Assembly (NCBI GenBank): GCA_002709075.1 | Contig: PAPV01000005.1 | Coordinates: 1 to 64,000, forward strand | Direction of reading: 5' to 3' | DNA from: Rhodospirillaceae bacterium | Lineage (GTDB): Bacteria; Pseudomonadota; Alphaproteobacteria; MPNO01; UBA2964 | DNA length: 64,000 nt | Shown: one piece after another, positions 6,027-22,095 of the stretch | Position numbering within the stretch: position 1 is the stretch's first letter | Layout of the letters: each line of letters opens with the position of its first letter | The notes under the pieces: generated by a model | What the model was told of the DNA's origin: nothing | What the model saw: the letters and a program-made list of their open reading frames with translations, nothing else | Databases searched by the model: none | Made by a program: the position numbers and the translations under genes

Positions 6027-6107
6027 AACTATCTTATCCCATGTTGTGTAGGCAATCACCACCAATGGATACTTAACGCTCTGCGTTGTCGTCCAACTAA
6101 TGCCCAA

Positions 6108-7493
6108 TTATAAAGTTTCTGAAATATGGCCTTTAGGCAATTTTAAAATAGCTCGTAGACCGCCTTTTGGAGAAGCAGCTAAATGAATGCTGCCACCATA
6201 CAAATTAGCTATTTGTTTTACAATTGATAGACCAAATCCGCTTCCGGGAACTGTTTCATCATATCGGTTCCCCCGTGAAAACATAGTTTCCCGATTTTCT
6301 GGCGCTATTCCTGGACCATCGTCTTCGATTAAAAATCTAAGCATCGGTTTTGGGATTTCTTTACTTTTTATTTCTTCCACATTTATCCAAATATTGGCCT
6401 TGCAAAATTTACCGGCATTTTCAATCAGGTTTCCAAGTAATTCTTCGAGGTCCGTTTGAGCACCCTTGAATGTCAAAGCTTCATCCACTTCAATGTGAAT
6501 ATTTATTTTGCGATCTATATATTGTTTTTTTACAGCGTTTGATAATGCTGAAACTACATTTTTTACATTCGTACTAGCTTTATAAATTAATGGATTTATG
6601 TAAGTTTCTCTCTCTCTACGTAAGTAACTAGAAATATGTCTCTCGATTTTATCAATTTCCACTTGGACAATTTTATTACATTGGGTTGTTGGTTCTCTGT
6701 TTTCATTTGAGATTACAGAAATTGGAGTTTTTAATGCATGCGCTAAATTACCAACTTCGGCCCGCGCACTTAAGAGCACCTTTTCTGTGTGATTTATGTG
6801 TGCATTAATTTCTTCAACCAGTGGCTTAACCTCAATTGGATAGGAGTCATCAAGGTTATGTTTTTTCCCTTCTCTAATTTCACTTAGAGACCTTTTTAAA
6901 TTTTCTAGTGGACGTAATGAAAATGTAACTTGTGCCAAAATACCAATCAATAATGTGAACACTATAATACCAAATGCATAAATTAAACGTTCATTAACTT
7001 TATCTACAGAATCAACCAAATTTTTTGCATCAGTCGCGATTAAAAACTGAAATTCCATGTTAGTTCCTTTTCCGATCACAAATTTTTGTTTTACGTGTAA
7101 GTCTGTGTCTTCAGGTCCGGCTCCAAATAAAATATTTGGTGGTGTTGTTTTTGATGATTCGCGATATGAAATTTCAAATCCTTTCATCGATAGGGAACGT
7201 CCAACGATTACCTCATCTTTAACCCTTGATATTTGCCAATACCATCCAGAATTTTGGCGGTTGAACTTGTTATCTGTGTAATATGTTTTGTAGGGTTTAA
7301 TTTCGCCTGCAGGTGTAAAAGAAGTAAACTCTATGAGATATGTTAATTCTTGTTCAACTTGTCTATCTAATGACTCAAGAATCGGGGCTTTAAGAAAACT
7401 GCTTGTAAGTACACCCCCTAGAATAAGCGGAAATAGTATCCAAAGCGTTGCAGAGCCTAACAAACGTTGAGTAATAGAACGGGTCTTAGTCAT
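6108..7493 (-). CDS. Sensor histidine kinase, PhoQ-like
   Basis: A 461-aa inner-membrane kinase. It has two membrane segments (about 14-35 and 170-192) around a periplasmic sensor region of about 135 residues, then a HAMP region (about 193-245). The phosphoacceptor is H252 in LAHALKTP, the PhoQ/QseC-type H-box. The ATPase has its N-box at about 351-362 (N355, N359), DGPG at 392-395 and GSGFGLS at 417-423. All catalytic motifs are intact. It lies 24 bases after the response regulator gene and is presumably co-transcribed with it. The ligand is unknown; PhoQ relatives sense divalent cations or envelope stress. Confidence 0.9.
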   Translation of the reverse strand: MTKTRSITQRLLGSATLWILFPLILGGVLTSSFLKAPILESLDRQVEQELTYLIEFTSFTPAGEIKPYKTYYTDNKFNRQNSGWYWQISRVKDEVIVGRSLSMKGFEISYRESSKTTPPNILFGAGPEDTDLHVKQKFVIGKGTNMEFQFLIATDAKNLVDSVDKVNERLIYAFGIIVFTLLIGILAQVTFSLRPLENLKRSLSEIREGKKHNLDDSYPIEVKPLVEEINAHINHTEKVLLSARAEVGNLAHALKTPISVISNENREPTTQCNKIVQVEIDKIERHISSYLRRERETYINPLIYKASTNVKNVVSALSNAVKKQYIDRKINIHIEVDEALTFKGAQTDLEELLGNLIENAGKFCKANIWINVEEIKSKEIPKPMLRFLIEDDGPGIAPENRETMFSRGNRYDETVPGSGFGLSIVKQIANLYGGSIHLAASPKGGLRAILKLPKGHISETL

Positions 7494-7517
7494 CGACGAG
7501 ACAATCCAAATGCGCAG

Positions 7518-8228
7518 TCAAAATGGTGGTGGAGCTAATCTATAACCGCGTCCACGTATTGTCTCAATCATTCCGCTTGGGAACTTTTTCCTTAAGCGTG
7601 CTACAAAAACATCAATGGTATTAGAGTCCTTTATAGAGTCCGGGTCGTGTTGAAGATTGTAAATGTGTTCACCAATTTCAGTACGACTCAACACCTGCTC
7701 CGCATGATGCATTAAGTATTCAAATACTTTAAATTCATGCGCAGTTAATTCAACTCGTTTTCCATCTACTGAAACCCTGGAAGTACGAGTATCTAGTATT
7801 ACTGGACCCCACTCAATCAGGGCTGTGGAATAACCGGATGAGTATCGACGGATGATCGCGCGTAATCTTGCAAGGACTTCTTCGATGTGAAATGGTTTAG
7901 TCACAAAGTCGTCGGCACCATTATCGAATACAGTTACCTTTTCAGACCAAGTATTTCGTGCTGTTAGTACTAGAACTGGTACATTTTTTGCGGCTAGGTC
8001 ATCCGCGGTTTCCCGCCAACTCTTCAATATCGACACGCCGTCAAGTTCTGGCAAACCAAGATCTAAAATTATTGCGTCATAGCTCTCTGTATCACCTAAA
8101 AATTTTCCCTCTTCACCATCGAATGCGGTGTCAACAACATAGTGTTCATTTTCGAGTGCCCGAACTAATTGCTTATTTAATTCGGGATCATCTTCTATGA
8201 CCAAAATTCGCACAGTAACGATCTCCAT
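7518..8228 (-). CDS. OmpR/PhoB-family response regulator
   Basis: A 236-aa transcription factor. The receiver domain (1-120) has the acidic pocket at E12-D14, phosphoacceptor D56 in LDLGLPELDG and K111 in VTKPF. A C-terminal winged-helix DNA-binding domain follows (about 140-232), ending with IETIRGRGYRL. I chose the ATG at 8228 because the 17 residues before it do not belong to the receiver fold. It is the first gene of the leftward operon with the sensor kinase. It is divergent from the envelope cluster that begins at 8453 and so could control it; the perfect inverted repeat in between is a candidate site. Confidence 0.9.
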   Translation of the reverse strand: MEIVTVRILVIEDDPELNKQLVRALENEHYVVDTAFDGEEGKFLGDTESYDAIILDLGLPELDGVSILKSWRETADDLAAKNVPVLVLTARNTWSEKVTVFDNGADDFVTKPFHIEEVLARLRAIIRRYSSGYSTALIEWGPVILDTRTSRVSVDGKRVELTAHEFKVFEYLMHHAEQVLSRTEIGEHIYNLQHDPDSIKDSNTIDVFVARLRKKFPSGMIETIRGRGYRLAPPPF

Positions 8229-8274
8229 TTTATTTTTTAAAAACAAATTCCGCACAGAATAAATAACTAAATTC

Positions 8275-8309
8275 AGCAAGAAATATCAAACATTTTGATA
8301 TTTCTTGCT
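8275..8309. promoter_or_regulatory. Perfect 16-bp inverted repeat between divergent genes
   Basis: The arms AGCAAGAAATATCAAA (8275-8290) and its exact complement (8294-8309) are separated by CAT. It lies in the only gap between the leftward two-component operon and the rightward envelope cluster. Because it is between two starts it is unlikely to be a terminator. It could be an operator or a stem-loop in the 5' leader of the rightward transcript. Confidence 0.5.
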
Positions 8310-8452: not shown

Positions 8453-9307
8453 ATGCCAAACATTAGTAAAAAAACCAAGTTGTTAGTATTGTTGATGGTA
8501 GCAATTAAGATTTGGATGGGGTCTCACAATATAGTAATCGCCCACCCAAATGCGTCACTAAACACCGAGAACTTTAATTCATTAGCAGAACAAATCATTA
8601 ATGGATTAGATGCGTCACCGATAAATGATTTTACATTTCGGTCTGGATATGATCGACCCGGCATAGAAATTTCTTCCTTCAGTAAACATAAAATGCAAGG
8701 TGACCAGTTCCTTTCTGACTTAGCTAACGAGTTTAACTCCGGTTTATTGGCAGCGTTAATCAGAAAAACAGAAGGGCGGTTTAAATTCTTTTCCCAATCA
8801 GCTCAACAGTCCAAGAGAGGCCCAAAGTTATTTTGTAAGATGGGAGAACATTGTGGGTTTACGGGCAATAGCTCTATAAGATCATCCGAAGCTGATATAT
8901 TAATTATTGGTTCAATGCGTATCTCAGGAAGGTATGCATTTCTTTCGTATAAAGCTATATCCATAGATAATGGACTAATCCTGGCGGCCACATCGACTGT
9001 TCAGTCCGAACTTTCCACTAATTTATTAAAAAGAAGACATGGCCAAAGAGAGATCCGTCTATCAGAACACAAAAGTACTATAGTGTCTGATCGGACGGAT
9101 TTTACTTGCCCCGATCTTAAGTCCCTAAAACGGGCTTTAGTTGATTTAGGATATTACTCCGAAAATTTTAATGACAAAAATGGGCCGGCTACTCAAATGG
9201 CGATTAAGGCCTACCAGTGGCATCACAACTTTCCCGAAACCGGAAAATATAGCTGTGAATTGGCGAAGCATGTGAGATCGGAAATAAAAGCAAGGGGGCT
9301 TGATTAA
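8453..9307 (+). CDS. Secreted protein with C-terminal peptidoglycan-binding domain
   Basis: A 284-aa protein; the start at 8453 is chosen because GAGAAGG precedes it and it gives a signal peptide (cleavage near residue 30). The middle part (about 40-190) has the pattern of small envelope lipoprotein domains of the FlgO/LpoB/CsgG kind: LSDLANEFNSGL followed by SEADILIIGSMRI and LSYKAISIDNGLILAA. This is inference. Residues 219-276 look like a PG_binding_1 domain (CPDLKSLKRALVDLGYY, then TQMAIKAYQ). It would sit in the periplasm holding peptidoglycan. It is the first gene of the envelope cluster; the next gene begins one base after its stop. Confidence 0.7.
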   Translation: MPNISKKTKLLVLLMVAIKIWMGSHNIVIAHPNASLNTENFNSLAEQIINGLDASPINDFTFRSGYDRPGIEISSFSKHKMQGDQFLSDLANEFNSGLLAALIRKTEGRFKFFSQSAQQSKRGPKLFCKMGEHCGFTGNSSIRSSEADILIIGSMRISGRYAFLSYKAISIDNGLILAATSTVQSELSTNLLKRRHGQREIRLSEHKSTIVSDRTDFTCPDLKSLKRALVDLGYYSENFNDKNGPATQMAIKAYQWHHNFPETGKYSCELAKHVRSEIKARGLD

Positions 9308-9308
9308 T

Positions 9309-9755
9309 ATGGTTGGTGAGAACCAAGAAACAGCAATGACAGAAATAGCCTTAGCCATGGCAATGGGTTTTTTTAGTTTGATGATTTTGGCAATCGTATC
9401 GGTTGGTATCCCTAAAGAAACAAATAAAGCTGCTAGTACAACTGCTGTCATAGCTAAATTCACGACATTACAATCAAAAAATAATAGTCCAATTGGCAAA
9501 AAGGTTACTAAAAAAGATATTTTTATTGTTTACGATGGTAAGGCGTTTCTGAACAAAAATCTGGAAACTATTAATCCTGAAAATATTAAGCCCGATAAGA
9601 GGATAATTCTTGGTTTGGAACCGGATTTTTCCGTGCAACGCGCACTATTGGTTCAGTCAAAATTGAGAGGCATGAATGTTGTCCTGGTTGCCCTTAACGA
9701 TCAATGGCGGACAGCGTTAGATAGAAAAAAGAAGGCTAACGCAAATGTCAGATAA
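9309..9755 (+). CDS. Possible ExbD/TolR-like single-pass protein
   Basis: A 148-aa protein with a short cytoplasmic N-terminus, one membrane helix (about 13-34) and a C-terminal domain outside. The layout and the C-terminal run PDKRIILGLEPDF with LRGMNVVLVAL resemble the ExbD/TolR periplasmic domain (a strand, then a helix with KxxGxxxVxLV). However, the conserved Asp in the ExbD/TolR membrane helix is absent; the only acid nearby is E12 at the membrane edge. ATG 9309 is preferred over TTG 9300 because AGGGGG lies ten bases upstream. A TolQ-like channel gene lies at 12231, supporting the pairing. Homology is suggestive, not certain. Confidence 0.5.
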   Translation: MVGENQETAMTEIALAMAMGFFSLMILAIVSVGIPKETNKAASTTAVIAKFTTLQSKNNSPIGKKVTKKDIFIVYDGKAFLNKNLETINPENIKPDKRIILGLEPDFSVQRALLVQSKLRGMNVVLVALNDQWRTALDRKKKANANVR

Positions 9756-10284
9756 TCGTAAATTGAATAATATTTTTTGGAAGACCTATCTTAATTGTAT
9801 AATTTTAGGCGTTTTATCAATGTCGTCCGTAAAAGCGTTTGAAAGAGCTTCTACCAACGATAATCGGGTAATTATAAAAAAAATGGTGTTAGAACAGGCG
9901 GCGAAGATTGGGGTCTCAGCCCCACTTGCCCTTGCGGTTGCTCATGCCGAATCAAATTTTAACCCCTATGCTAAGAGTACAAAAGGAGCGCGTGGTGTGA
10001 TGCAAATTATGCCTGCGACATCTCTTGGAGAATACGGAATCGCGCCTGATAAACTTTGGAATCCCAAGGTAAATATTTCTGTAGGATTGCATTACCTCAA
10101 AAAACTCTTAATCAGATATCGTGGTCGCGTTGATTTAGCTCTTTCGTTTTACAATGGTGGTTCTGCCGTTGATCGAAAAGGAATTGGTCGTCCGCAGGTA
10201 ATTCCCTACACACAAAAATACGTGATGAAAGTGACCCGTTTAAGGTTCACTTATCAAAAACAGCTGGGTTTGGGAAATTTTTAG
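9745..10284 (+). CDS. Lytic transglycosylase, SLT family
   Basis: A 179-aa exported peptidoglycan-cleaving enzyme. A signal peptide or anchor covers about residues 10-31. The SLT domain (about 45-165) has catalytic E69 in AHAESNFNPYA, then GVMQIMP (84-90), NPKVNISVGLHYL (about 106-118) and ALSFYNGG (132-139), all typical of family 1 transglycosylases. It cleaves the MurNAc-GlcNAc bond. The gene overlaps the previous one by 11 bases. Within this cluster it probably opens the peptidoglycan so that the trans-envelope complex can be inserted, as transglycosylases do for secretion systems and flagella. Confidence 0.85.
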   Translation: MSDNRKLNNIFWKTYLNCIILGVLSMSSVKAFERASTNDNRVIIKKMVLEQAAKIGVSAPLALAVAHAESNFNPYAKSTKGARGVMQIMPATSLGEYGIAPDKLWNPKVNISVGLHYLKKLLIRYRGRVDLALSFYNGGSAVDRKGIGRPQVIPYTQKYVMKVTRLRFTYQKQLGLGNF

Positions 10285-10331
10285 CTGAAATAAAATAATT
10301 ACTGACTTTAATCAAGAAGGAAACATTTCTA

Positions 10332-10892
10332 ATGTTAAATATAAATTTAAAGCGCTTCAAAAACGTTATACTTGCCCTTCCTATGTTAATTTTGTTTAGC
10401 GCATGTTCGTTAGAGCATGCCCCGAGCACCACCGGTATAGGTTTTCGGGAAGCCAGATTTGCTGAAATTGCAGAAATGCGCAAATTCCGTGAATGTGTAA
10501 AAGAGGGTGAGAAACTTGATAAAATCGCAAGTCGTTCTGGGGGATATGGTGCCTATTTGTCAAGTGCCAGGGTCTTAGAAAAATGTGAGACAGAAATTGG
10601 TCCCAACTTTAGTGGAGTTGGCACTGAGGAGAGAATGCAAGCATATGCACTTGCGATTCAGAACTATGTAAAAGGACGAAATATTAAAAACGCAAAATCT
10701 GGCTTAAAGAAATTTAAATTAAAATTCCGTAATAAAGATTTTTATTATCCGGATGGGACTTCATTTCTTCAGACAATGGAGGTCCTAATCGGTACGCACG
10801 ATCCAATGTCATTCGGCCACCTTTCTTCTCTCAATGTAAATAAAGTTCTCAAAAGTGAGATGAGAAGAATCGACTATTGGAAAAATCAATAA
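10332..10892 (+). CDS. Predicted lipoprotein, unknown function
   Basis: A 186-aa protein with a lipoprotein signal peptide: basic start, hydrophobic core and lipobox LFSAC with acylated C25. The mature part is helical and charged, with two further cysteines (in REC and EKC) that could form a disulfide. AAGGAAA precedes the ATG. No family recognised. Ser after the lipid Cys gives no Asp+2 inner-membrane signal, so outer-membrane anchoring is expected. It lies 47 bases after the transglycosylase gene and 19 before the next gene, in the same operon. Confidence 0.65.
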   Translation: MLNINLKRFKNVILALPMLILFSACSLEHAPSTTGIGFREARFAEIAEMRKFRECVKEGEKLDKIASRSGGYGAYLSSARVLEKCETEIGPNFSGVGTEERMQAYALAIQNYVKGRNIKNAKSGLKKFKLKFRNKDFYYPDGTSFLQTMEVLIGTHDPMSFGHLSSLNVNKVLKSEMRRIDYWKNQ

Positions 10893-10911
10893 ACGAACAA
10901 GGATTTTTCAA

Positions 10912-11820
10912 ATGAGGGATAAATATTGTAAAGCAATGAAAATATACTTTCAAGAAGTGACAAATTTCGCCAAAATATTTTTGACCTTTGTCCTTAGTTT
11001 TTCTCTTTTTGTTAGTAGTTCATATGGAAAGGCAGAACCAGGTGATGAACAATGGCTTCCAAAGACGAGTGAAAGACTCATTAAATTACCTGCAAAAATT
11101 CTAAAGAAGTCCGTCAATAAAGATTTTAAGAGTTCAGAACTAGCAATTGGTCTGGATAAAAATCAAAAATTAATAAACCTAAAGGTAAAAACCCTAGGTG
11201 ATATCAGTGTTGCGCTTAATAAAACACAGGATGAAAGGCTGGAAACCGAACTGCGCCATCAATATTTAGCGGAAAAGCAAGCATATCTCAAATTAGTAGA
11301 GAAAAATCAAAGACTAAGACGAGCAAAGGCGAGTACAAAATTAAAACTATACAAAGGAATTTTAAAGAAATTGATCCATGAAAATGGTCTCCAACTGCGG
11401 CAAAATAAAAAGATAGAACTTTTACAAAAAACAGCGCGCAAGCGGTTTGAAAAAAACATCTCTAAAGTCGACCAGCATCTGTTGGAATTGAGACCCGGTA
11501 AGAAAAGTAAATACGAAAAAAAGTATGCAGCTAATTCTGATGCAATACAAAGGCTTGTTAACGCAATAAATATGCATCCGTTAAGTCAGAGGACAGAGAA
11601 AAGCGATAGCCAGTATAACAAGGCTGAGTTTTTAAGAGAGGAAATATATGAGCTTGAAGCAACTCTCGCGATTTTGGGTCAAGAAAAACAGATACTTGGT
11701 CACATGGCTAAAATTGTAGCGTTGGATGCACGTGCACTTGCTGAAAGCTTGGCGGATCACACCGATAACAGACGCGGATTGGATGGATCACCCGAGGCTC
11801 TTAAATTTTTTGTGAACTAG
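10912..11820 (+). CDS. Secreted coiled-coil protein, unknown
   Basis: A 302-aa basic protein. Its signal sequence ends near SSSYGKA (about residue 40) if the ATG at 10912 is used; AAGGA lies eight bases upstream. An internal ATG at 10936 would shorten the n-region. Most of the mature part, especially about 100-200 and 230-280, is Lys/Glu/Leu-rich helix with heptad-like spacing, consistent with a periplasmic coiled coil. No known domain was recognised. The stop is nine bases before the next gene. Possibly a structural rod or scaffold of the complex; this is inference. Confidence 0.6.
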   Translation: MRDKYCKAMKIYFQEVTNFAKIFLTFVLSFSLFVSSSYGKAEPGDEQWLPKTSERLIKLPAKILKKSVNKDFKSSELAIGLDKNQKLINLKVKTLGDISVALNKTQDERLETELRHQYLAEKQAYLKLVEKNQRLRRAKASTKLKLYKGILKKLIHENGLQLRQNKKIELLQKTARKRFEKNISKVDQHLLELRPGKKSKYEKKYAANSDAIQRLVNAINMHPLSQRTEKSDSQYNKAEFLREEIYELEATLAILGQEKQILGHMAKIVALDARALAESLADHTDNRRGLDGSPEALKFFVN

Positions 11821-11829
11821 GAGAAAGAA

Positions 11830-12228
11830 ATGAAGAAATTAATGTGTGGATTCTTGATGTCCGTGATGGGATCTTTGATTTTGCTTGGCCCGACCGGTAT
11901 GTCACTAGCTGGCAATTTAGAAAACTTGGAGCGGGAGCGTGCAATAATGCTAGAATCATTCTTAGTATTAGAGCCTCATGCAAAAAAAGGTATGGATCAT
12001 AAATTAATAACTAGGCAACGGCTAATTGATTTAGAGCGCTTAGTATTAAGGGATAACAAATTGTTGAAAAAGAATAGGTCCGCAGTGCGGGTTGCTCTGA
12101 GTAACTACGATCTAACCTTTCTGATGCATGCCTCTGTAGAAAAAAACAAAGATGTATTTGAACATTGGCTCCAAGAAGTTGGAATTTCCTCTACAAGCCT
12201 CAAAAAGGCGAGGGTTGGAAGGCGGTAA
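11830..12228 (+). CDS. Small secreted helical protein, unknown
   Basis: A 132-aa protein with a clear Sec signal peptide (MKKLMCGFLMSVMGSLILL, cleavage near SLAGN at about residue 28). The mature part of about 100 residues is helical and rich in Leu, Arg and Glu, without cysteine. AGGAG lies eight bases before the ATG. It ends two bases before the TolQ-like channel gene, so the two are surely co-transcribed and probably coupled. No recognised domain; by position it may be an accessory periplasmic subunit of the channel. Confidence 0.6.
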   Translation: MKKLMCGFLMSVMGSLILLGPTGMSLAGNLENLERERAIMLESFLVLEPHAKKGMDHKLITRQRLIDLERLVLRDNKLLKKNRSAVRVALSNYDLTFLMHASVEKNKDVFEHWLQEVGISSTSLKKARVGRR

Positions 12229-12230
12229 TA

Positions 12231-12713
12231 ATGTTTGCAGATGTTTTTGAGATGAAAATGGTGTTTCGAGCAATGAGTTACATGCTCGGTACGATCATTA
12301 TCTTTCTGGCTGTGTTCTTTATGTTTACGGATTTTCATATTTACCAAACACTTAATTGGGTTCGGGAAATGTTGGGATATTCTTTTCTGATCTTGACAAT
12401 GACTTTGTCGTTAATTGCCATTTATTGTTGGTTAAAAATTTCTTCAGAGAAGCAAAGTGAACACAAATTCTGGATGGCTATTGGGTTACATTCTGCGAAT
12501 GGGATAATGACCCTTGCTCTCACCTACACCCTTCTTGGTATAAGCCTTGGTATTGGTTCGTTGTCTGGGAAATCATTAAGTCCAGAGACGGTTCAAATAG
12601 CAGTCCAAGAAATGACTACCAATTTCAGTCTTGCATTTATGACCACTGTTATTGGCCTTCCTTTATCCACAATTTTAAAAGCTTTTTTAATTATTACCCA
12701 TAATAAAAGATAG
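12231..12713 (+). CDS. MotA/TolQ/ExbB-like proton channel protein
   Basis: A 160-aa inner-membrane protein with four predicted helices (about 15-35, 47-69, 90-113, 130-155). The last two carry the channel-family pattern: LGISLGIGSLSG, then a loop with AVQEMTTNFSLAF, then TTVIGLPLS. This mirrors the LLGLLGTVxGM ... GIAEALxTTAxGL pair of TolQ/ExbB and the related region of ZorA-like proteins. The large cytoplasmic domain of TolQ/ExbB is missing, so it is a minimal form. ATG 12231 with AAGG upstream is preferred over in-frame starts inside the previous gene. The family powers periplasmic machines by proton or sodium flow. Confidence 0.65.
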   Translation: MFADVFEMKMVFRAMSYMLGTIIIFLAVFFMFTDFHIYQTLNWVREMLGYSFLILTMTLSLIAIYCWLKISSEKQSEHKFWMAIGLHSANGIMTLALTYTLLGISLGIGSLSGKSLSPETVQIAVQEMTTNFSLAFMTTVIGLPLSTILKAFLIITHNKR

Positions 12714-12748
12714 TCTGTGAAACTTGGATTAGCAAAGGAGGATACAAA

Positions 12749-13327
12749 GTGAAATATCTTATTTTTAATATTGCAGTTGTTTTTTCTCTTGCGGCCATAA
12801 TTTGGGATAAACCAGGAGATAGATCGCAAATAACAGAGCAATTTCAAAGTTTGTTTGACGATGTTAAAAGAAGCATAAACTGGTCCAGTGATTTTAAAGA
12901 GAAAACTCGAAAAGGTTTAGGTGGTAGTAACAAAAACCTAGTAAAAAACTCGGAGGGACTACCGAAAGTCGTATTAGAAAGGTCAGAGAGCCAACAATTG
13001 GAAAGCATCCCAAATGAAAAGAGGTCTCAGAAACTTCCTAGAACCAGTCAAAAAACAGAGCTTTCAAAGAAAACTAAAAACAGTAAAAAAACAAATTCAG
13101 CAAAAACTGTTAATACGAAGTCAGAAATTACAAATTTAGATGTTATTCAAAAACCCATAAAGAATAATTCACATTTTGGCTCTTCTTTGTCAGAGGTAAA
13201 ACAAAAAAAGGCAAAAACATTAGAGTCGGAACAAAGTTTGGCAATTTCTAATGATAATCGTCGCCGTGCATTATTAACCCTTTCTGAAGAAATGGAATTT
13301 ATTCACGCACGTTTTGTTTATGAATAG
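12749..13327 (+). CDS. Single-pass protein with basic linker (TonB/TolA-like layout)
   Basis: A 192-aa protein starting at GTG 12749, set by a near-perfect AAAGGAGG five bases upstream. One hydrophobic segment at residues 3-19 is followed by a long Lys/Ser/Thr-rich, low-complexity stretch (about 50-165) and a short helical end (LLTLSEEMEFIHARF). This is the layout of proteins that reach from the inner membrane through the periplasm, such as TonB or TolA, but there is no sequence match I can claim. It could also be a cleaved signal peptide. It follows the channel gene by 35 bases and overlaps the next gene by eight. Confidence 0.55.
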   Translation: MKYLIFNIAVVFSLAAIIWDKPGDRSQITEQFQSLFDDVKRSINWSSDFKEKTRKGLGGSNKNLVKNSEGLPKVVLERSESQQLESIPNEKRSQKLPRTSQKTELSKKTKNSKKTNSAKTVNTKSEITNLDVIQKPIKNNSHFGSSLSEVKQKKAKTLESEQSLAISNDNRRRALLTLSEEMEFIHARFVYE

Positions 13328-14321
13328 AGAAGTAAACAGAAACAATATGTCCAAGAGAAAAACAAGCTGCTTATCAATTGTTATTAGTTTTTCATTGATA
13401 GGCTTCTCTGTCTTTATAATTTTACCTATGGAGCCTTTGAGAAAGGTTGATAAGAAGTCTACGGTATCATCAAAAATAATACAAAAGGAAGAAGCTTCTC
13501 CTGAAATTATAGTGATACCGAGAGCACCAGTCTTTCATTCTTTAAAAGAAAAAAAATCAATTGATGCACATGAAAAGAAAAATAATTTTTCCCAAACACC
13601 TCTGCAGAGGCGGATGTTGTCAGTAAAAAAGAGAAATAACAAAGTGAAGGAAGGTCAAACTCAATTTAGTACAGGAAGACTACTTGATAAAAATAGTGAT
13701 GAAAGTTTATCAGAAAATAAAATAGGTGAAAATACTCTAACCGCGGCCCAAAAAAAGGATAATAGCAATTTAAAAAAGGAGACCAGTGTAAGTATTCCAG
13801 ACGGGCGCTTTCTTTTGAGAATACTTGAGCATGGCAAAGGTCCAGAGATATTTATTGGTTGGCCACAAAATCTTTCTGATAGGAGCCGCCTTTATCATCT
13901 TTTACGCAAGTGTTACGGGATGAAAAATGCTGTAATTAGCCAGAAGAATGTGCTTTATTCAGAAGCAACTTTGCCGGGAAGAACTTGGATTCCTAACACG
14001 GATTTATTCAGTGGTTTTTTGCGTTCGCCAATTGGACAGCCAATTAAATCCGAGGATCAAAATTTTGAAAAGATTGCTCAACGACATAATCTTTCAATTT
14101 GGAATCCTGTTCGAATTTTTCCAAGAAATGTTGATGCAATGATACTATCTGGTTTGCGTAATTTGATTGGTCAAAAATATCAGAAAGCACAAATTGTACG
14201 AGCTCATTACATGTTGAAAGGTGGATCTTTTCTCTACCTTCATAAGATAACAGTTGATAGAAAGCCGGTTTTTGGTGAAATCAGAATTCCACTTAATAAT
14301 AAATTGTTATGCGCAGCTTAA
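13320..14321 (+). CDS. Single-pass protein with long linker and C-terminal domain
   Basis: A 333-aa protein. A membrane anchor at about 18-36 is followed by a charged disordered linker (about 40-156, rich in Lys, Ser, Asn) and a compact C-terminal domain (about 158-333) that starts IPDGRFLLRILEHGKGPEIF and has conserved-looking aromatic and Gly positions. The layout is that of TolA/TonB: inner-membrane anchor, periplasm-spanning linker, terminal domain near the outer membrane. The C-terminal fold is not recognised. ATG 13320 lies inside the stop of the previous gene (TATGAATAG), so translation is coupled. Linker codons are very AT-rich. Confidence 0.6.
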   Translation: MNREVNRNNMSKRKTSCLSIVISFSLIGFSVFIILPMEPLRKVDKKSTVSSKIIQKEEASPEIIVIPRAPVFHSLKEKKSIDAHEKKNNFSQTPLQRRMLSVKKRNNKVKEGQTQFSTGRLLDKNSDESLSENKIGENTLTAAQKKDNSNLKKETSVSIPDGRFLLRILEHGKGPEIFIGWPQNLSDRSRLYHLLRKCYGMKNAVISQKNVLYSEATLPGRTWIPNTDLFSGFLRSPIGQPIKSEDQNFEKIAQRHNLSIWNPVRIFPRNVDAMILSGLRNLIGQKYQKAQIVRAHYMLKGGSFLYLHKITVDRKPVFGEIRIPLNNKLLCAA

Positions 14322-14992
14322 TGCGTTTTCTTAGTTCAGGGCGTTTTGCTCTCATTTCTTTATGTTTTCTGATCTGGATATTGCCTGCGGCGTGTATGCA
14401 AACTTCATATTCGGAAATAAGTGATGCACCCCAAAGAACAAATTTTTTTGATCGATCGGTGGAATTTAAGCTGTATAGAGAATTCTTTCAATTTGCACCT
14501 GAATGCGTGGTTATTTCGATAAGGTCAAGCCACGCTATAAATCCCGTAAGCTTATTAATAGCACGTTCATTTGAGAGGTATCTTAGAGATAAAATCAAAA
14601 AAGTTATTGGATTGAGACATGCAGTTAAATTATCCAGAAAGATTGGAGTCAGTTTGGATTATCAAGAAGATCGAATAATTTTCGCAAATTTGTCTAAATG
14701 CAGCTTTCTTGCAGAAATAGAGATTAGAAGAATAGAAGATACATTTCTTTTTATATGGGCAAACCGATCAATTGATTTGAATTTTCAATTATTATGTTTG
14801 CTAACAGGAAAGACCCTTTTTAAAAGTTCTCATACTGCAAAGCGGGGCAACGGTGGAATACCGCTATCCGCATATGCCATGCCCATTTCTCTTGCTCAAG
14901 CCGCTAAGGTAACAGGGGATAGAGAGATATTTCTTTCTCTTGCTGACGATGCAGCGCGACGGATGTTAAAGCCGCTACCTGATCTGCGTTAA
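14321..14992 (+). CDS. Predicted outer-membrane lipoprotein
   Basis: A 223-aa lipoprotein. The start at 14321 forms a TAATG stop-start overlap with the previous gene; ATG 14309 adds four residues. The lipobox is LPAAC with acylated C25. The mature domain has the pattern of small LpoB/GNA1162-like envelope lipoproteins: NPVSLLIARSFERYL, a central strand region with FLAEIEIRRIEDTF, and a C-terminal SLADDAARRMLKPLP. The assignment to that fold is inference. It is the last gene of the rightward operon and converges on the gene ending at 15029. Confidence 0.65.
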   Translation: MRFLSSGRFALISLCFLIWILPAACMQTSYSEISDAPQRTNFFDRSVEFKLYREFFQFAPECVVISIRSSHAINPVSLLIARSFERYLRDKIKKVIGLRHAVKLSRKIGVSLDYQEDRIIFANLSKCSFLAEIEIRRIEDTFLFIWANRSIDLNFQLLCLLTGKTLFKSSHTAKRGNGGIPLSAYAMPISLAQAAKVTGDREIFLSLADDAARRMLKPLPDLR

Positions 14993-15001
14993 ATATCAAA
15001 T

Positions 15002-15015
15002 AATCCACGTGGATT
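15002..15015. repeat. 14-bp perfect palindrome in the convergent gap
   Basis: AATCCACGTGGATT lies in the 36-base gap between the convergent genes ending at 14992 and 15029. It has no loop and no T tract, so it is a poor terminator; it could be a protein-binding site or chance. Confidence 0.35.
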
Positions 15016-15028
15016 GTGTTCCTTACAT

Positions 15029-16564
15029 CTAAAAATCTTGTGACTCTGTCGAACCACTAAGTTTGCCTCGACGTAATGGAAATTTATCTTCCTTGTATCG
15101 TAACGCTTTATCTTCATTGTTAGGAATTTTTGTAGGATCTGTTGTATTTTGTTGGTGTTTAAATTTTCTAGCACCAGCAGCTTTATTTGCGTTCCAAGAG
15201 ACGATCACACCATATATTCCCTGGCTGGTCACTGGATGAGGTGCTTGCCAATCTAAAACCTCATGAATGCCGTTTATTTTTGCGAACCCTGCCCCCTGTT
15301 CCATTTTTTTTCGGGCACTCCTATTAAGTTGGACTTTCGCAACTTTATTTTTATATGTTCTTACATCTTGTGATGTTTTGGAAGCTTCTTGGAGTGCGAC
15401 TGTTTGATTAATAAAGAGGCGTAATAGATTTTCAGCAGCTAATTTCGCGTTAGTCTTCGCCGCAATTATAGAACTGCTATCGTTGCGGTCGACCTCAGAT
15501 TGTCCGTATGAAATTAAGTTAACGTGGCCATTTTCGTCTACTTTAATCGTTAAACCCCAGCTATTAATTAAATCAAATAATTCGTTTTGATTATTCGGAT
15601 TTGGAAGTTGATCTCTGATAGGTCGATTTGGAAACAGGGTTGGTACACCAGAAAAATTTCTGGCTGCCATTGCATCGGCTAGTCTCTCTGATTTTCGGCT
15701 ATATCGCAAAACTACGCAAATTTGTGCATACTGATTATTTGTTGTTAAATTTTCGCTAACATACTGAGTGTATATACCTTTCATACGTTCTTTTGCTGTC
15801 GCTTCGATTATTTCGTCAAATTGGCGAGTGCGAAGTAATTTTTTAGCCTCCTCTTCAGCCTTTTTTGCTGCCTTTATAAGCTCTTGACGTTTGGTCTGAT
15901 TTGACTCATTTCGTGCTTTTTTTTCGGCATCTATATCGATGCCACGCTTTCTTAAATCCTCGTCAATCAGGGTATTTAGCCATTTAAAGCCTTTATCCAT
16001 AGTACTAGACAAGGAGGGTTTTTGATAACGTTTTTGATCCAAGAGAGCCAATTTTTTCCGTAAACTGGCTGCCTGATCAGCCGCACTTTTCTCAGTTTTA
16101 TTCAAGGATGTTTGGGGAGCTAATCTAACGCTTGCTTCGCTCAAGATCTTTTTTTCTAGCGAGGCAGCCATTTTCGTATTTGCATCCATCCATGCTTCAC
16201 GAAATGCTACATAGCGACTATCAATGAAACCGGGCTGCCCAATCTTTATTTCCGTAGATGCAATCCCTAGCGCTAAAGCAAATTCATTATTTTTACTCAG
16301 GTTGTTGAACCCTTCGGTCCAACCTTTTTCTCTTATATATTTTCCACATGAACTTCCGCTAATAGTTCTCGCCATGCTCAATCTAAGCATAGTTCCTTGT
16401 TTCGGTGAGAAACCGGTGATTTTACCATTTACATCAACATTTGAGGGTAAGAATTTAGTCTGAACTTGAGCAAAAGCACTAAACGTTAAAAAAGAAAGAA
16501 TACTTGCAAATACGATTAATGAACCTGATTCTGTAAAGTTAACTTTCCGGATCCTTAATTTCAT
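15029..16564 (-). CDS. Large secreted protein with central coiled coil
   Basis: A 511-aa exported protein. The signal peptide ends at AFAQVQ (about residue 33). An N-terminal domain (about 45-150) contains AFREAWMDANTKMAAS. A charged helical region (about 160-275) has a coiled-coil core rich in Lys, Ala and Glu. A C-terminal domain has TNAKLAAENLLRLFINQTVA and a Gly-rich end (GAGFAKINGIHE, GIYGVIVSW). It resembles uncharacterised proteins (DUF6844-type, from memory only) found next to CsgG-like genes. It is the last gene of the leftward three-gene operon. Function unknown; likely periplasmic or outer-membrane associated. Confidence 0.65.
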   Translation of the reverse strand: MKLRIRKVNFTESGSLIVFASILSFLTFSAFAQVQTKFLPSNVDVNGKITGFSPKQGTMLRLSMARTISGSSCGKYIREKGWTEGFNNLSKNNEFALALGIASTEIKIGQPGFIDSRYVAFREAWMDANTKMAASLEKKILSEASVRLAPQTSLNKTEKSAADQAASLRKKLALLDQKRYQKPSLSSTMDKGFKWLNTLIDEDLRKRGIDIDAEKKARNESNQTKRQELIKAAKKAEEEAKKLLRTRQFDEIIEATAKERMKGIYTQYVSENLTTNNQYAQICVVLRYSRKSERLADAMAARNFSGVPTLFPNRPIRDQLPNPNNQNELFDLINSWGLTIKVDENGHVNLISYGQSEVDRNDSSSIIAAKTNAKLAAENLLRLFINQTVALQEASKTSQDVRTYKNKVAKVQLNRSARKKMEQGAGFAKINGIHEVLDWQAPHPVTSQGIYGVIVSWNANKAAGARKFKHQQNTTDPTKIPNNEDKALRYKEDKFPLRRGKLSGSTESQDF

Positions 16565-16611
16565 TTTTTACACCACCATATTTAATTTGTATTTTTGCAA
16601 CCTTATCTATG

Positions 16612-17865
16612 TCAGTCTGTTTGAAAATCGAGATCAATCATCTTCTCAATATCACTGAATTTTTTTTTAATAATTCTCTTTCGGTAATTTTGTTGTTGTT
16701 GGCGAGCGATAAGATCACTCTTTAATATGTCACTGCGAGCAATCTTTAAATCAACAATTTCTCCTGTGGAAACTTTTGATTGACTTCCAATTATTTTTAT
16801 CATCCCAACAGTTTCTTCTTTTCTTCCCAAAGATTCTCCTGTGTATGGGTCAATAAGTTTTCTACCCAACGCCACAAGATTGTATTGGGTTCCAATTTTG
16901 ACCGTGTCTCCACCCTGGCCAAGCGTGACTATATTTCCACTTACATCTAAAACTGATATAGGAAAGATCGCGTCCACGATCTTTCTACCGAAAATTTCTG
17001 CAAACTTCCTTGCTAAAGTCTCCATCGAGCCATCCTTATGGCTCAGTTGCTCGGTTGCAGAAAATTTTATCTGTGTGCTGACAATATCAATAATTCTTAT
17101 AGTAATTTTCGCCGACGTCTTAGTGGTTTTTATGAGTTGCCCTGTCGTTTTAATTGCAGTTTTTGAAAGTTTATAACGCGCTCGTTCTACAAGCCCAGTA
17201 ATTATATAATCAGCACCAAGACGATTACCTAAACGTGCCAATTCATCTGCGTTTGTTCCATCCCTTTTTAAGAAGTCTAACTCACTGTCTTGTTCGTCAA
17301 GAAAAATACGGTCGAGCACTGCAAATTTTCGAGACTGTGTAATATAATTTTCTAAATTAAGGCGAAAAACCCTTTCAAAATTCTGTATATGACTTTTGGG
17401 AGTCGTTTTTTCCAAAATCCTAAGAGGAACAAGAGACAGTTTTATGCGGCGCAATTGAGAATTGTGTTTAAATACTGGAACGGTGACTCTTAATAATACA
17501 CGATAAAGTTTAGATCGTGTATCTTTTTTTCGACTTATAATTTCATAGCTTTTTACAATTCCCTGTGTTCTTTTCGAAATACTTTCCTCAAAAAATTTTT
17601 TAGTTTGTGTAATCTTTTTATTATTTTTAGAAAAAGCTTTTTGAGACAACAAATTGTTAGCCCGGCTGCTTATTATTGATCCGTTAACTTTATTTATACC
17701 TACTATCAATGCTCTTTCTACTGCACGTTGCAGACTAACACCCCTACCTTCTGCGTCTACAGTTCGATATTCGATGCGGGCACTAACATTTCTGGTGCTG
17801 AGTAAAATTAAACAAATCAACGTAATACAGGTAGCTGACAAGTACACAGGTTTATTTTGTATCAT
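16612..17865 (-). CDS. CsgG/FlgT-like envelope assembly protein
   Basis: A 417-aa exported protein in three parts. After a signal peptide (about 1-29) comes an N-terminal domain with VSLQRAVERALIVGINKVNG (43-62), like the FlgT N-domain. A central CsgG-like domain (about 135-300) has FAVLDR (181-186) and LGNRLGADYIITGLVE (212-227). A C-terminal SH3-like part (about 305-360) has GDTVKIGTQYNLVALGRKL, like FlgT-C. FlgT builds the H ring of sodium-driven flagella and CsgG is a secretion pore, but no flagellar or curli gene is in the window. AAGGTGG precedes the start. It is the middle gene of the operon 18996-15029. Confidence 0.7.
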   Translation of the reverse strand: MIQNKPVYLSATCITLICLILLSTRNVSARIEYRTVDAEGRGVSLQRAVERALIVGINKVNGSIISSRANNLLSQKAFSKNNKKITQTKKFFEESISKRTQGIVKSYEIISRKKDTRSKLYRVLLRVTVPVFKHNSQLRRIKLSLVPLRILEKTTPKSHIQNFERVFRLNLENYITQSRKFAVLDRIFLDEQDSELDFLKRDGTNADELARLGNRLGADYIITGLVERARYKLSKTAIKTTGQLIKTTKTSAKITIRIIDIVSTQIKFSATEQLSHKDGSMETLARKFAEIFGRKIVDAIFPISVLDVSGNIVTLGQGGDTVKIGTQYNLVALGRKLIDPYTGESLGRKEETVGMIKIIGSQSKVSTGEIVDLKIARSDILKSDLIARQQQQNYRKRIIKKKFSDIEKMIDLDFQTD

Positions 17866-17880
17866 CAGAAACCACCTTAG

Positions 17881-18996
17881 CTATTTCAAACCCTTTTTTT
17901 GCAATTCTTTTGCAATAATTTGCCCTGTCATTTTTCCTGCTCTCATCAATGCATTAGTTCGAGCAGATTTTTCATTTGTCCCAAGTCCAGACCATTGTTT
18001 TTGAACTGCAGAAACTTTTCTAGAGAATCTTTTTGAGACATCATAAACTGCTACATTAACACGAACGGACACCATTCTGCGTCCACGATAATTTCGGGCG
18101 GCATCAACTGTCATACTGCCTCGTGCAAAAAACTTAAAGTCACACCGTCGCGCGGCTTTGCGTATTTGATTCCAGTGTCTACCTGCCATTTTGTTTTTAC
18201 TTTTGAAAATAGAGGATACTGTCTCGGCTGAGGGAATTTGCCCACATTCATCGGCGGCCCCAACCAACTCGCCATATGGCGTCCATTCGTATCCAGCGTT
18301 TGTCAATTGTCCGCTGACTGCCGTATTAAAGTCATCATCACTGATAATTTTGTATTTTATATTATCAGATTTTCTTATTGTGCTGCCACCCGTTTCACTC
18401 TTCTGTTTAGACACATCCGCGTTGTAAACCAGCGCTTTACCATCTGAGGCCTGAGAAATTTGCTTAGATTTTGCTTTACTCAGAGATTTAGAATTTTTCT
18501 TTCGATTTACGTCAAATGTTTCCGCAGTTTGAGCCTGTCTTGCAATAAAAAGGGCTGTGAACGCGGAACCTGCACCGGATACTATAGGTTGTTTCTTCTT
18601 AATATTGAGTGCCTGTAAAATTCGTGTACTGTCGATATTTAAACAGACATCGGTTTTTAAAGTTTGTTCAGACTCAGAAAATTCACGTTTGCCAGCTTCA
18701 TTATAATTAGAGATGTAAAAACCCAAATTTTTAAGAAAAATATTTTTTTTTAACTCATAAGCTTTAAACTGATCTCCATCGAGAGAATGGATAAAATTTT
18801 TCCACGCGGCCAATACAGCTTTTTTCTTCCCATCTATTATATGCTCATCGGAAGCTTCTTCCACCTCCTCATATTCATCAGTTTTTATTACTGAAGTACC
18901 CTTAATACATGAGGCAGAAAGGATTGAAGTAGATATTACAAAAGATAAAAAAAAGGCGATGTATGCTATGATCATATTTTTGGGTAAAACTAACAT
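17881..18996 (-). CDS. Secreted protein of the envelope cluster, unknown
   Basis: A 371-aa exported protein. The ATG at 18996 has a strong AGGAAGG five bases upstream, which settles the start. A signal peptide runs to about residue 29. An N-terminal part has KKAVLAAWKNFIHSLD (about 58-73). A Lys/Ser-rich linker (about 160-210) follows. The C-terminal domain (about 213-368) has YKIISDDDFNTAVSGQL, then FARGSMTVDAARNYRGRRM and a final AGKMTGQIIAKEL. The C-terminal pattern of strand plus SMTV and VRVNVAVYD suggests the same ABD/LpoB-like fold as other cluster members, as inference. It is the first gene of the leftward operon, divergent from the Tat-exported protein. Confidence 0.65.
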   Translation of the reverse strand: MLVLPKNMIIAYIAFFLSFVISTSILSASCIKGTSVIKTDEYEEVEEASDEHIIDGKKKAVLAAWKNFIHSLDGDQFKAYELKKNIFLKNLGFYISNYNEAGKREFSESEQTLKTDVCLNIDSTRILQALNIKKKQPIVSGAGSAFTALFIARQAQTAETFDVNRKKNSKSLSKAKSKQISQASDGKALVYNADVSKQKSETGGSTIRKSDNIKYKIISDDDFNTAVSGQLTNAGYEWTPYGELVGAADECGQIPSAETVSSIFKSKNKMAGRHWNQIRKAARRCDFKFFARGSMTVDAARNYRGRRMVSVRVNVAVYDVSKRFSRKVSAVQKQWSGLGTNEKSARTNALMRAGKMTGQIIAKELQKKGLK

Positions 18997-19064
18997 TTAA
19001 CCTTCCTAGTTTTTTTAGCATTAAAAGGTAAAATATAAAAAAAACTGACTAAAGGAAACAAAAA

Positions 19065-20429
19065 ATGAAACTTCTCCATTTATCCCGCAGACAGGTGATA
19101 AAGGGTATGACTGCTGGTAGTTTTATTGCTTCTTTTGACTCCGCTGTATCTGCAGTTCCGCGGATACCAATTAGGATTCTTTGGACTGGGGTTACATTTA
19201 TGCGGAGCTGTCCAATCGAAAGTGCTTCTTGCAAAGAATTAGATGACTATTTTCCTCATACCTGGGCTACGCTCTCTAGCAGCGTTGGAAATAGTGAAAA
19301 AATTCATTTACTAGATAAGGTGGTATTCAGATCAGTTGCTCCAATTACGGGCAAATATAATAATATTCGAATGATTTTCCCGGGGCCGGAAAATTCATTT
19401 GGTGCGTCAATCGAGACAAATTTGGGGATGTTTGTTGGCATATCATCGGATAGAGACATTGCACATCACTATGTAAAATCAGAGAACCAACTTGTTCAAA
19501 TTGCGGAATTGCAGACTTACGTAATTGTTTTTGACATAAAAAACTATTCTATTATTCAGAGTTATCCTCTTCGTTTTGTGGGAATTGATTCGACACAGAA
19601 AAAAAATAGACGAGAGTTTGTTAAAAAAATGCAGTGGGAAACACTTGTGGGCACTGGTTCAAATGAAAAAAGTTTATCCAGAGCTCTTGCAAAAACTTTA
19701 AAAAAACTTGTCGTCAATCAACAAAAACCCGTCGGTGTAAGGGTAACGAGGATACAATTAAAGGGTGTTGCTAAGAAATGGTTAGAGCAGGAACCAACCG
19801 CATCAAAACATACGGAGAGTGATTATCGTGAAATACTTGGTAATGCTTTGACCTCAGCCATTTCGGAGAAACTTCAAATAGGTATACAACCATTTTCTCC
19901 TGCTGATTCCATCATGCGTGTAACCGACAGCATGGTTAACAAAAGCAGTGAACTCTTAGATAAAGATTTTAATAATGGAAATATTGATTGGGATATCCGT
20001 TTAACGGCTTTTGGAACCCAAATACAAAATAAAAGGATTGCCGGAAGAAAGTACCTTTTTAATCGCAGAATAGACATATTTGTTGGAATTTCAGTGGGTA
20101 AGTATAAACGCTCCTATGCTGATGAACAAAGACTTATTGAAATTAAAGAAGACCAAATTCTTGAAAAGGAAGTATTTAAAAATAAATTTCATGCAGTTTC
20201 AATAGAAGAAACAACTGGCACGTGGTCAAACAACTGGTTTTATGCGCTTGATCTTCATACAAGACTATTCGAGTGGCTTTTTGAAAATTTGAGAAAAGAA
20301 AACTACGCACTTATTTTTAATGGGGAACAAAAAAATCTAAAAACTAGAAGGTTTCTTACGAAAGCTCACTCGCACAATTTTTCTCAATTTAAAGAACAAG
20401 CGAAGGCTCTAAGAAATATTTTAATATGA
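19065..20429 (+). CDS. Tat-exported protein of the envelope cluster, unknown
   Basis: A 454-aa protein with a twin-arginine signal peptide: S7-R8-R9-Q-V-I-K, a mildly hydrophobic core, and probable cleavage after VSA (about residue 29). The mature protein has two parts, about 30-200 and 225-454, with no cofactor motif I recognise. A twin-arginine route implies folding or cofactor loading in the cytoplasm, which is unusual in this cluster of Sec-exported proteins. AAAGGAAA lies upstream of ATG 19065. It is divergent from the operon starting at 18996 (68-base shared promoter region) and convergent with the gene ending at 20448 (18-base gap). Confidence 0.65.
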   Translation: MKLLHLSRRQVIKGMTAGSFIASFDSAVSAVPRIPIRILWTGVTFMRSCPIESASCKELDDYFPHTWATLSSSVGNSEKIHLLDKVVFRSVAPITGKYNNIRMIFPGPENSFGASIETNLGMFVGISSDRDIAHHYVKSENQLVQIAELQTYVIVFDIKNYSIIQSYPLRFVGIDSTQKKNRREFVKKMQWETLVGTGSNEKSLSRALAKTLKKLVVNQQKPVGVRVTRIQLKGVAKKWLEQEPTASKHTESDYREILGNALTSAISEKLQIGIQPFSPADSIMRVTDSMVNKSSELLDKDFNNGNIDWDIRLTAFGTQIQNKRIAGRKYLFNRRIDIFVGISVGKYKRSYADEQRLIEIKEDQILEKEVFKNKFHAVSIEETTGTWSNNWFYALDLHTRLFEWLFENLRKENYALIFNGEQKNLKTRRFLTKAHSHNFSQFKEQAKALRNILI

Positions 20430-20447
20430 AATTGTATCACTGAAACG

Positions 20448-21821
20448 TTACTGGTCAAAAATCTTCATGTTTGCTTCTTCCGCATTAATGATGCCATTAT
20501 TTACAGGGATTTCTTTTTTTGCTGCGTAATCTGTAAGTGCGTGATGGAGTTTGCAGGCTGTTTTGAGGCCTTTGTCCATTGCTGGTGCAACTGCCACAGT
20601 GTCACTCAGTGAACCAAAGTTGTTGAAAAAGCTGAGAGTAGTTTTTCCTAATTGCGCAATAACATACCTGTTCATTCCTCTTGCTCTTTTCAGTTTCTCT
20701 TTTCCAATTGGGTCGAGTTCATGCGTTGCATTAGAAATTTTTCTTTCAACCAAATCGGCTGCCGCTGTGGAGATCCTCACCAGCTTTCTTATAACCTGTT
20801 GGTTTTCATCAGCTTGATTTACCAAATCTTGAAAGCGTTTTTTTATTTCTGCTTGCTCTTTAGCAAAATCAAAGGCCTCGAGAAGGAGAAGCCCAGCTTG
20901 CATCTGGATCCTAACTAATTTTTCTGTGTCTCTTCTTAAGGTTGACCCGGAATTGCTTACAATTTGCCTTTTTAGATCTGCTTTGATTTTCAACGCCTGA
21001 GCTGCATAACGCCGGTTACGTTCATGATATGGGTTTCTGGGATCCACAGCAACAATGTGAAATAGTTTGACGATATTTTGCCATTCGTTCCCATCTTGGT
21101 TTTTCCAGTCGTCAGGATTTGAGAGAACATTTGCTGCTTTGGGTATGTTTTGTCTTACTCCATCGATGCCGAAGAAGAGCCGATGTCCAACAACATAAAT
21201 TGCACCCAACGAAAAGTTTTCATATGCATCCATCAATATACGTTCTTGGTAGGCTTGTTTTGTATGAACACCGTTGAAATGAGCAAGTATTAGAGAATAT
21301 GCAAACTTGGCATCATTTTGTTCTATTTCATCAAGGTCGTCGTTTGAAATTGCATATTTGATTTTTGCTGCAATCTCTAGTCTTCTTAGCCCGTCTACAA
21401 TAAAGTTCTCAAAAAGACGTTGAATCTTCGAGGAATTAAATCCATTTCGATACCAAATAAGGTCCCGTGCCCATTTTTTTCCGTCCAATCTATTCATAAA
21501 GATAATGTTTTGTGTATCCGTTGTACCTTTGTTGAAATCTACAGCTACATCTTTTTTTATTGACTTAATATTAGCGTCAGATGCGTCATGCATCCATTCA
21601 AGTGGATCTGCATTTCTTCTGCATAGAAAACTAATAATAGAACCAGAAGAATAATTTAGATTGCCATTTTGGTCTTGGGTATCTGGCTGAATAAAGGTAG
21701 GCGAATTATTTTTTGAAAGATTTTTAAACAAATTGTTTAGTTCAAAAGCATATGTGTTTGTGTTTGAACCCAATAGAAAAATAAATATAAAATATTTAAC
21801 AATTAGAGCTGATTTACGCAT
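20448..21821 (-). CDS. Secreted helical protein, unknown
   Basis: A 457-aa exported protein. The signal peptide (MRKSALIVKYFIFIFLLG) cleaves near TYAFE. The mature part is largely alpha-helical and charged, with two cysteines near 67 and 426. The middle has YAISNDDLDEIEQNDAKF and GAIYVVGHRLFFGIDGV; the C-terminal half looks like a helical bundle. No known domain was recognised. AGGAC precedes the ATG at 21821 by seven bases. It is a single-gene leftward unit that closes the envelope cluster; codon use and secretion signal match its neighbours. Confidence 0.6.
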   Translation of the reverse strand: MRKSALIVKYFIFIFLLGSNTNTYAFELNNLFKNLSKNNSPTFIQPDTQDQNGNLNYSSGSIISFLCRRNADPLEWMHDASDANIKSIKKDVAVDFNKGTTDTQNIIFMNRLDGKKWARDLIWYRNGFNSSKIQRLFENFIVDGLRRLEIAAKIKYAISNDDLDEIEQNDAKFAYSLILAHFNGVHTKQAYQERILMDAYENFSLGAIYVVGHRLFFGIDGVRQNIPKAANVLSNPDDWKNQDGNEWQNIVKLFHIVAVDPRNPYHERNRRYAAQALKIKADLKRQIVSNSGSTLRRDTEKLVRIQMQAGLLLLEAFDFAKEQAEIKKRFQDLVNQADENQQVIRKLVRISTAAADLVERKISNATHELDPIGKEKLKRARGMNRYVIAQLGKTTLSFFNNFGSLSDTVAVAPAMDKGLKTACKLHHALTDYAAKKEIPVNNGIINAEEANMKIFDQ

Positions 21822-22095
21822 TTATTTGTCCTGAAATATTACTATTCAAGGCGACAACTTATTTTTTTCCGGACAGTGTTTTCCAAATTTAGCCAATTTA
21901 TCAGATACCTTGCTGAAAATAAATTAGATATTTGGAAAAAATATGTAAATTAAAGTTAGGCCGGCACTTGTTTGTTCTTCTAAAAACCTAAAATAGGATG
22001 GTAATTTAATTATATATAAAGTGATAAATTTTTGCTATCTAAATTTTGGCTTTAATAGCCCCAAAGACTTTAAGCTTGTTTATCAAATAACGGTA

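Follow-up and report, generated by a model that had tools for sequence, protein, structure and literature searches.

The well-studied machines with channels of the MotAB/TolQR type, namely Tol, Ton, the flagellar stators, and Agl-Glt, use an aspartate in the helix of the B subunit. According to reviews, this mid-membrane Asp is conserved in MotB, TolR, and AglQ/S (PMC9389320). In the AglRQS-Glt system of Myxococcus, involved in gliding and focal adhesion, AglR and AglQ match the Pfam families PF01618 and PF02472 at 4e-18 and 7e-18 (PMC3169522), and a precedent exists for a lytic transglycosylase that couples an AglRQS-type machine to the cell wall (PMC11444678). Here we describe a conserved gene cluster that shares parts of this layout and lacks the sequence markers of all these systems.

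The window analyzed is a stretch of 64,000 nucleotides at the start of contig 5 in a 2.5-Mb, 99.9% complete alphaproteobacterial genome, and 15 genes (g01-g15) lie within positions 8453-21821. A preliminary description had taken this 13-kb span for a single unit of twelve exported or membrane proteins in a row. The exported character was confirmed: a strongly hydrophobic N-terminal 15-mer is present in 14 of the 15 cluster genes compared to 8 of the 37 other genes of the window, and the remaining gene, g14, has a twin-arginine signal (SRRQVIK) instead; export signals were judged from the hydropathy of this 15-mer rather than by a signal-peptide predictor. The number and the unity were not: there are 15 genes, and the span consists of two separable modules, module 1 (g01-g10, positions 8453-14992), encoded entirely on the plus strand with short gaps or overlaps between genes, and module 2 (g11-g15), where only g14 is on the plus strand. 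The only Pfam domains over cutoff in g01-g15 are SLT (g03), PG_binding_1 (g01), and CsgG with LpoB (g12), and NCBIfam adds no family for g01-g10 except partial SLT matches. Neither collection provides a family for g04-g10 (seven of the ten module 1 proteins) or for g02, the eighth. Our main reading, with a probability of about 0.58, is that module 1 encodes a single envelope-spanning machine around a pair of the ExbB/ExbD type, probably transmitting force.

The channel-like subunit of this pair would be g07 (12225..12713, plus strand; 162 aa), a minimal MotA/TolQ/ExbB/ZorA-like membrane protein, which starts either with a GTG overlapping the g06 stop codon or with the ATG at 12231. The PADLOC ZorA2 model matches its residues 53-161 (E=3e-5), and in hhalign comparisons a profile of ZorA relatives matches its TM3-TM4 region at 3e-4 (the TolQ control scored 3e-5 and an unrelated control 0.24), while no sequence match to TolQ was found. 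The AlphaFold model of g07 has a pLDDT of 91.6, and Foldseek ranks 1-13 in PDB are all ZorA, TolQ, ExbB, or MotA, none of them significant singly (best E 0.32). The proposed MotA/TolQ/ExbB-like character is thus seen in the ZorA2 model, the ZorA profile, and the fold, whereas Pfam and NCBIfam fail to reproduce it: g07 of the window has no match to Pfam MotA_ExbB (PF01618) or to NCBIfam, 2 of the 55 g07 family members match PF01618 weakly (best E 0.073), and over all members the matches in both collections are largely noise, with ZorA_2 as a repeated match (7 of 55). PDB sequence profiles give no convincing match either. Both the large cytoplasmic domain and the long ZorA tail are missing from g07. 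Its residues T100, T102, G105, and G109 are invariant in all 55 sequences, as is T140 in 52 of 52.

The second subunit, g02 (9309..9755, plus strand; 139 aa, with the start inferred from orthologs), has one transmembrane helix followed by a periplasmic domain. Its AlphaFold model (pLDDT 79, with low values for the linker) has an ExbD-like predicted fold, Foldseek ranks 1-5 in PDB being ExbD, ExbD, ExbD, TolR, and ExbD (probabilities 0.77-0.96; E values 0.05-0.17, weak singly). Placement of g02 in the ExbD/TolR class therefore stands on the predicted fold, whereas all profile searches fail, with no sequence match to PF02472, to an ExbD profile, or to any other profile searched. A TolR-type assignment by hhalign against the TolR set was also tried and gave no match. 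In one relative, L220, the g02 and g07 genes are direct neighbours that overlap by 4 bp, on a short contig devoid of g04-g06. Taken together, the model, profile, and fold matches of g07, the fold of g02, and this adjacency make it likely, at the level of predicted folds, that g07 and g02 form a diverged minimal ExbB/ExbD-like pair. On the same contig (L220:1-5975), inspection by eye places a caspase-like protein and two ORFs resembling tyrosine recombinases next to the overlapping genes, which suggests a mobile stand-alone version of g02-g07.

The helix of g02 starts with M-T-E-I, like that of TolR from the same genome (MSEINVTPFVDV...), but the position of the TolR Asp, which is Asp in that TolR, is occupied in 48 g02 sequences by Gly (31), Ala (16), or Ser (1). 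No acidic residue is found at helix positions 4-23 in any of the 48, and E3, L6, M10, and S22 are invariant. The earlier proposal of an ion-driven machine is thus not supported by the g02 helix, where the canonical position carries no carboxylate. Given that MotB, TolR, and AglQ/S conserve this Asp, the sequences imply that the g07-g02 pair would either use another ion site or not conduct at all. If it is ion-driven, the usual Asp would have to be replaced by the invariant Thr residues of g07 together with the g02 residue Glu3, at the helix end that faces the cytoplasm. We tentatively suggest, with less confidence than for the machine itself, that the cluster represents a new machine family whose pair works without a transmembrane Asp, through such another ion site (g02 Glu3, g07 Thr) or as a mechanical or signalling hub that conducts no ions. 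If true, a stripped-down pair devoid of the Asp, along with several families that neither Pfam nor NCBIfam contains, would widen the range of known designs and offer a direct test of whether the Asp of this superfamily is indispensable.

The remaining module 1 proteins, all encoded on the plus strand, include most of the other components listed in the preliminary description. The peptidoglycan-binding-domain protein is g01 (8453..9307), an exported protein with a CsgG/FlgO-like domain and a C-terminal PG_binding_1 domain (2.3e-10); in its ortholog from L027 both CsgG (6.6e-7) and PG_binding_1 (4.9e-14) are over the Pfam cutoff. The expected SLT lytic transglycosylase is the exported g03 (9745..10284; Pfam SLT 5.9e-22), with a Glu-containing ES motif in 63 of 70 homologs. 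Two predicted lipoproteins of no known family, g04 (10332..10892) and g10 (14309..14992), were likewise recovered, each with an invariant signal cysteine among 25 aligned sequences: in g04 C25 and C55 are invariant and a lipobox-like pattern occurs in 70 of 77 homologs, and in g10 C29 and C66 are invariant, C131 is conserved in at least 90%, and the pattern occurs in 32 of 44. Neither has a Pfam match; among PDB sequence profiles g04 has no convincing match (best E 0.11) and g10 none.

Two further proteins have the anticipated TonB/TolA layout, with an N-terminal transmembrane segment and a linker. In g08 (12749..13327) these precede a conserved C-terminal RRxxLxxLxEEMEL helix, and the transmembrane motif M[KR]F..FN is matched by 57 of 71 homologs, in which F6 and N7 are invariant, N7 being required by the pattern itself. 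In g09 (13314..14321) the linker is Pro-rich with an LPPPP motif and leads to a conserved C-terminal domain of about 170 aa, with 35-49% identity in the first relatives and 21 invariant columns in 30 sequences; this domain has no detectable relation to TonB or TolA, and its best match among PDB sequence profiles is unconvincing (E 0.27). Finally, g05 (10912..11820) encodes a charged helical protein with a signal-like N-terminus, found conserved across 91 ORFs from the set of loci, and g06 (11830..12228) a small exported protein, the most conserved of the cluster with 33 invariant columns among 11 sequences. Both belong to no known family, and PDB sequence profiles give no convincing match for g05 (best E 0.93). 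In the g05 gene tree the sequence from the window (10912-11820) has a very long branch and deviating composition.

We propose the following arrangement for module 1. In the inner membrane g07, probably as an oligomer, would form the minimal pair with g02, and g09, possibly with g08, would be the linker spanning the periplasm. Peptidoglycan would be opened by g03 and gripped by g01, g05 and g06 would be periplasmic, and g04 and g10 would be lipoproteins anchored in a membrane, probably the outer one. The SLT and peptidoglycan-binding domains of g03 and g01 and the lipoprotein cysteines of g04 and g10 are what we count in favor of a machine that spans the envelope. Most likely it would serve to relay force, or a change in conformation, outward across the wall, from inner to outer membrane. 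That the products form one complex, and which stoichiometry, ion drive, and output it may have, we infer from these parts.

Compared with described systems, the layout is reminiscent of Tol and Ton and most of all of Agl-Glt, yet the sequence markers of these systems are absent throughout. The cluster shares with ExbBD-TonB and TolQRA the predicted periplasmic fold of g02, the MotA/TolQ/ExbB-like g07, and the transmembrane-linker-domain arrangement of g09; it differs in the missing ion-binding Asp, a much smaller A subunit, an unrelated C-terminal domain of the linker, and the SLT and peptidoglycan-binding partners in the operon. No Pfam match to TolB, Pal, or TolA was found among g01-g15. With AglRQS-Glt it has in common a channel pair, linkers (there GltG and GltJ), periplasmic and outer-membrane parts, and a lytic transglycosylase (AgmT, on which that machinery depends). 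In contrast, AglR and AglQ have direct Pfam matches and reportedly retain the Asp, and GltG has FHA and TonB domains, whereas the cluster has neither a PF01618/PF02472 motor nor a TonB-domain GltG; no Glt Pfam domain occurs in it, and FHA is found only in some gammaproteobacterial neighbours.

With the anti-phage Zorya ZorAB the link is g07, for which ZorA2 is the best of the family models used and ZorA the best fold, but the cluster lacks the long cytoplasmic tail and has periplasmic and peptidoglycan parts instead. Zorya is defined by the ZorA tail, the peptidoglycan-binding domain of ZorB, and ZorC/D/E; g07 and g02 are just 162 and 139 aa, and a PADLOC scan of g01-g07 and g09 gave no match to ZorB-E. 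The CsgG/FlgO-like domain of g01 and the CsgG/LpoB-like g12 are reminiscent of Vibrio FlgO/FlgP/FlgT and CsgG-type outer-membrane proteins, but no linkage of the cluster to flagellar genes is seen in the loci that were read. As previously stated, no Tol-Pal, flagellar, or Zorya gene lies within the cluster, while TolQ/TolR, PomAB, and FlhA are encoded elsewhere in the same genome. That the cluster is a Tol, Ton, Agl-Glt, or Zorya system that has diverged very far is therefore highly improbable: the similar general layout and the position of ZorA as best model and fold for g07 would agree with it, but g07 and g02 miss PF01618 and PF02472, matches to TolB/Pal, the TonB C-terminal domain, and ZorC/D/E are lacking, and TolQR and PomAB exist separately.

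The claim that the locus fits no known system agrees with these comparisons. No description of the cluster was found in open-access papers on known conflict systems, nor by term search in two 2025 surveys of the superfamily. The cluster is real, conserved, and undescribed in the open-access literature that was consulted, with a description elsewhere possible, and what it most likely encodes is a novel version of a machine crossing the envelope.

The neighbourhood is preserved well beyond the window, as the preliminary description required for its proposal to survive. When g06 was used as the probe in 84,980 species genomes, 102 relatives were obtained, of which 80 were kept, and tblastn showed the ten-gene order retained in related genomes: the order of module 1 is kept in about 80 other genomes at roughly 25-65% identity. 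The block g04-g05-g06-g07-g08-g09 is nearly always contiguous (neighbouring pairs counted 62-78 times in about 80 loci), g02-g03 are upstream of it in most loci, and g01 and g10 are also found around it. Most of the relatives are Rhodospirillales-like alphaproteobacteria from the sea; gammaproteobacteria are represented by Aestuariibacter and two Pseudoalteromonas. Cultured species with the cluster include Terasakiella brassicae, Aestuariispira insulae, Thalassobaculum litoreum, and Pseudoalteromonas denitrificans. A chance neighbourhood of ordinary envelope genes, with which the occurrence of module 2 without module 1 in L035 would agree, deserves next to no credence and conflicts, for module 1, with an order that is maintained over about 80 diverged loci.

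Among 385 alphaproteobacterial genomes, g06 is present in 17, all 17 of which have g07, and g07 occurs without g06 in two more; module 1 is therefore accessory but tightly co-inherited. Some genomes carry two copies of the cluster (L045 and L108 in one genome, L091 and L095 in another). Such a patchy distribution and the double copies, along with the CsgG-like protein of module 2 and peptidase neighbours at some loci, could also point to a cluster that drives or gates secretion, adhesion, or attack on neighbouring cells, like SiiAB or other accessory channel pairs. We regard this as improbable, since genes for a secreted substrate, adhesin, or toxin were not seen to be conserved alongside and no outer-membrane channel family was found in module 1.

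Module 2 is composed of exported proteins, among which g12 (16612..17865, minus strand) is the CsgG-like protein predicted earlier (Pfam CsgG 6.1e-6 and LpoB 9.6e-5, both over cutoff). Its neighbour g11 (15029..16564, minus) has a weak match to DUF6844 (5e-4, below cutoff). No family was assigned to g13 (17881..18996, minus; no Pfam over cutoff), conserved by g12/g14 in L035 and L037, to the Tat-signal protein g14 (19065..20429, plus; no Pfam), conserved in the same two loci, or to g15 (20448..21821, minus; no Pfam), conserved in L035, L036, and L037. In L035, which is from the same genus, g11-g15 occur without module 1 nearby, and g07 was not found in that 86%-complete genome, while in L039, L078, and L109 module 2 genes adjoin module 1.

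In many relatives, three genes, u0-u2-u1, are inserted between g03 and g04. The u1 protein has a Lon-like domain in which Ser79 and Lys128 are invariant (one member also has DUF4384), and u0 has no convincing match in PDB sequence profiles. This Lon-like regulatory trio also occurs without module 1 in L210, L214, L215, and L218, in some of them beside g01-like or g03-like genes. Proteins of the caspase, FGE, kinase, trypsin, FHA, and OmpA types are encoded near some loci. Upstream of the cluster in the window is a divergent response regulator and histidine kinase pair (6108..8279, minus; Pfam RR 4.1e-23, HATPase 1.3e-20), a possible regulator; a pair of this kind directly precedes the cluster in L025 and L078, and several further loci have one at a distance of a few genes.

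These neighbours bear on a further alternative, which we consider unlikely, albeit the strongest of the rivals, namely that g07-g02 is an ExbBD-derived, non-conducting scaffold or sensor whose ion path was lost and which signals the state of the envelope or peptidoglycan inward, often to the Lon-like/u0/u2 trio. The lack of the Asp from all g02 sequences, the Lon-like membrane protein u1 with u0 and u2 in the operon of many relatives, the adjoining two-component pair, and the caspase, FHA, kinase, FGE, and trypsin-like neighbours agree with it, but the invariant T100, T102, and T140 of g07 and Glu3 of g02 would fit a retained pore, and the trio is missing from the genome of the window, where u0 is absent and u1 has just a weak Lon-type match (E=1.7e-4). 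The force-transmitting machine remains our preferred reading of module 1. Two further genes flank the region in the window: a YHYH protein (5253-6107; Pfam 8.1e-39) directly follows the histidine kinase gene, and a small CPXCG cysteine-rich protein (22021-22302; Pfam 2.6e-6) is encoded just beyond the cluster.
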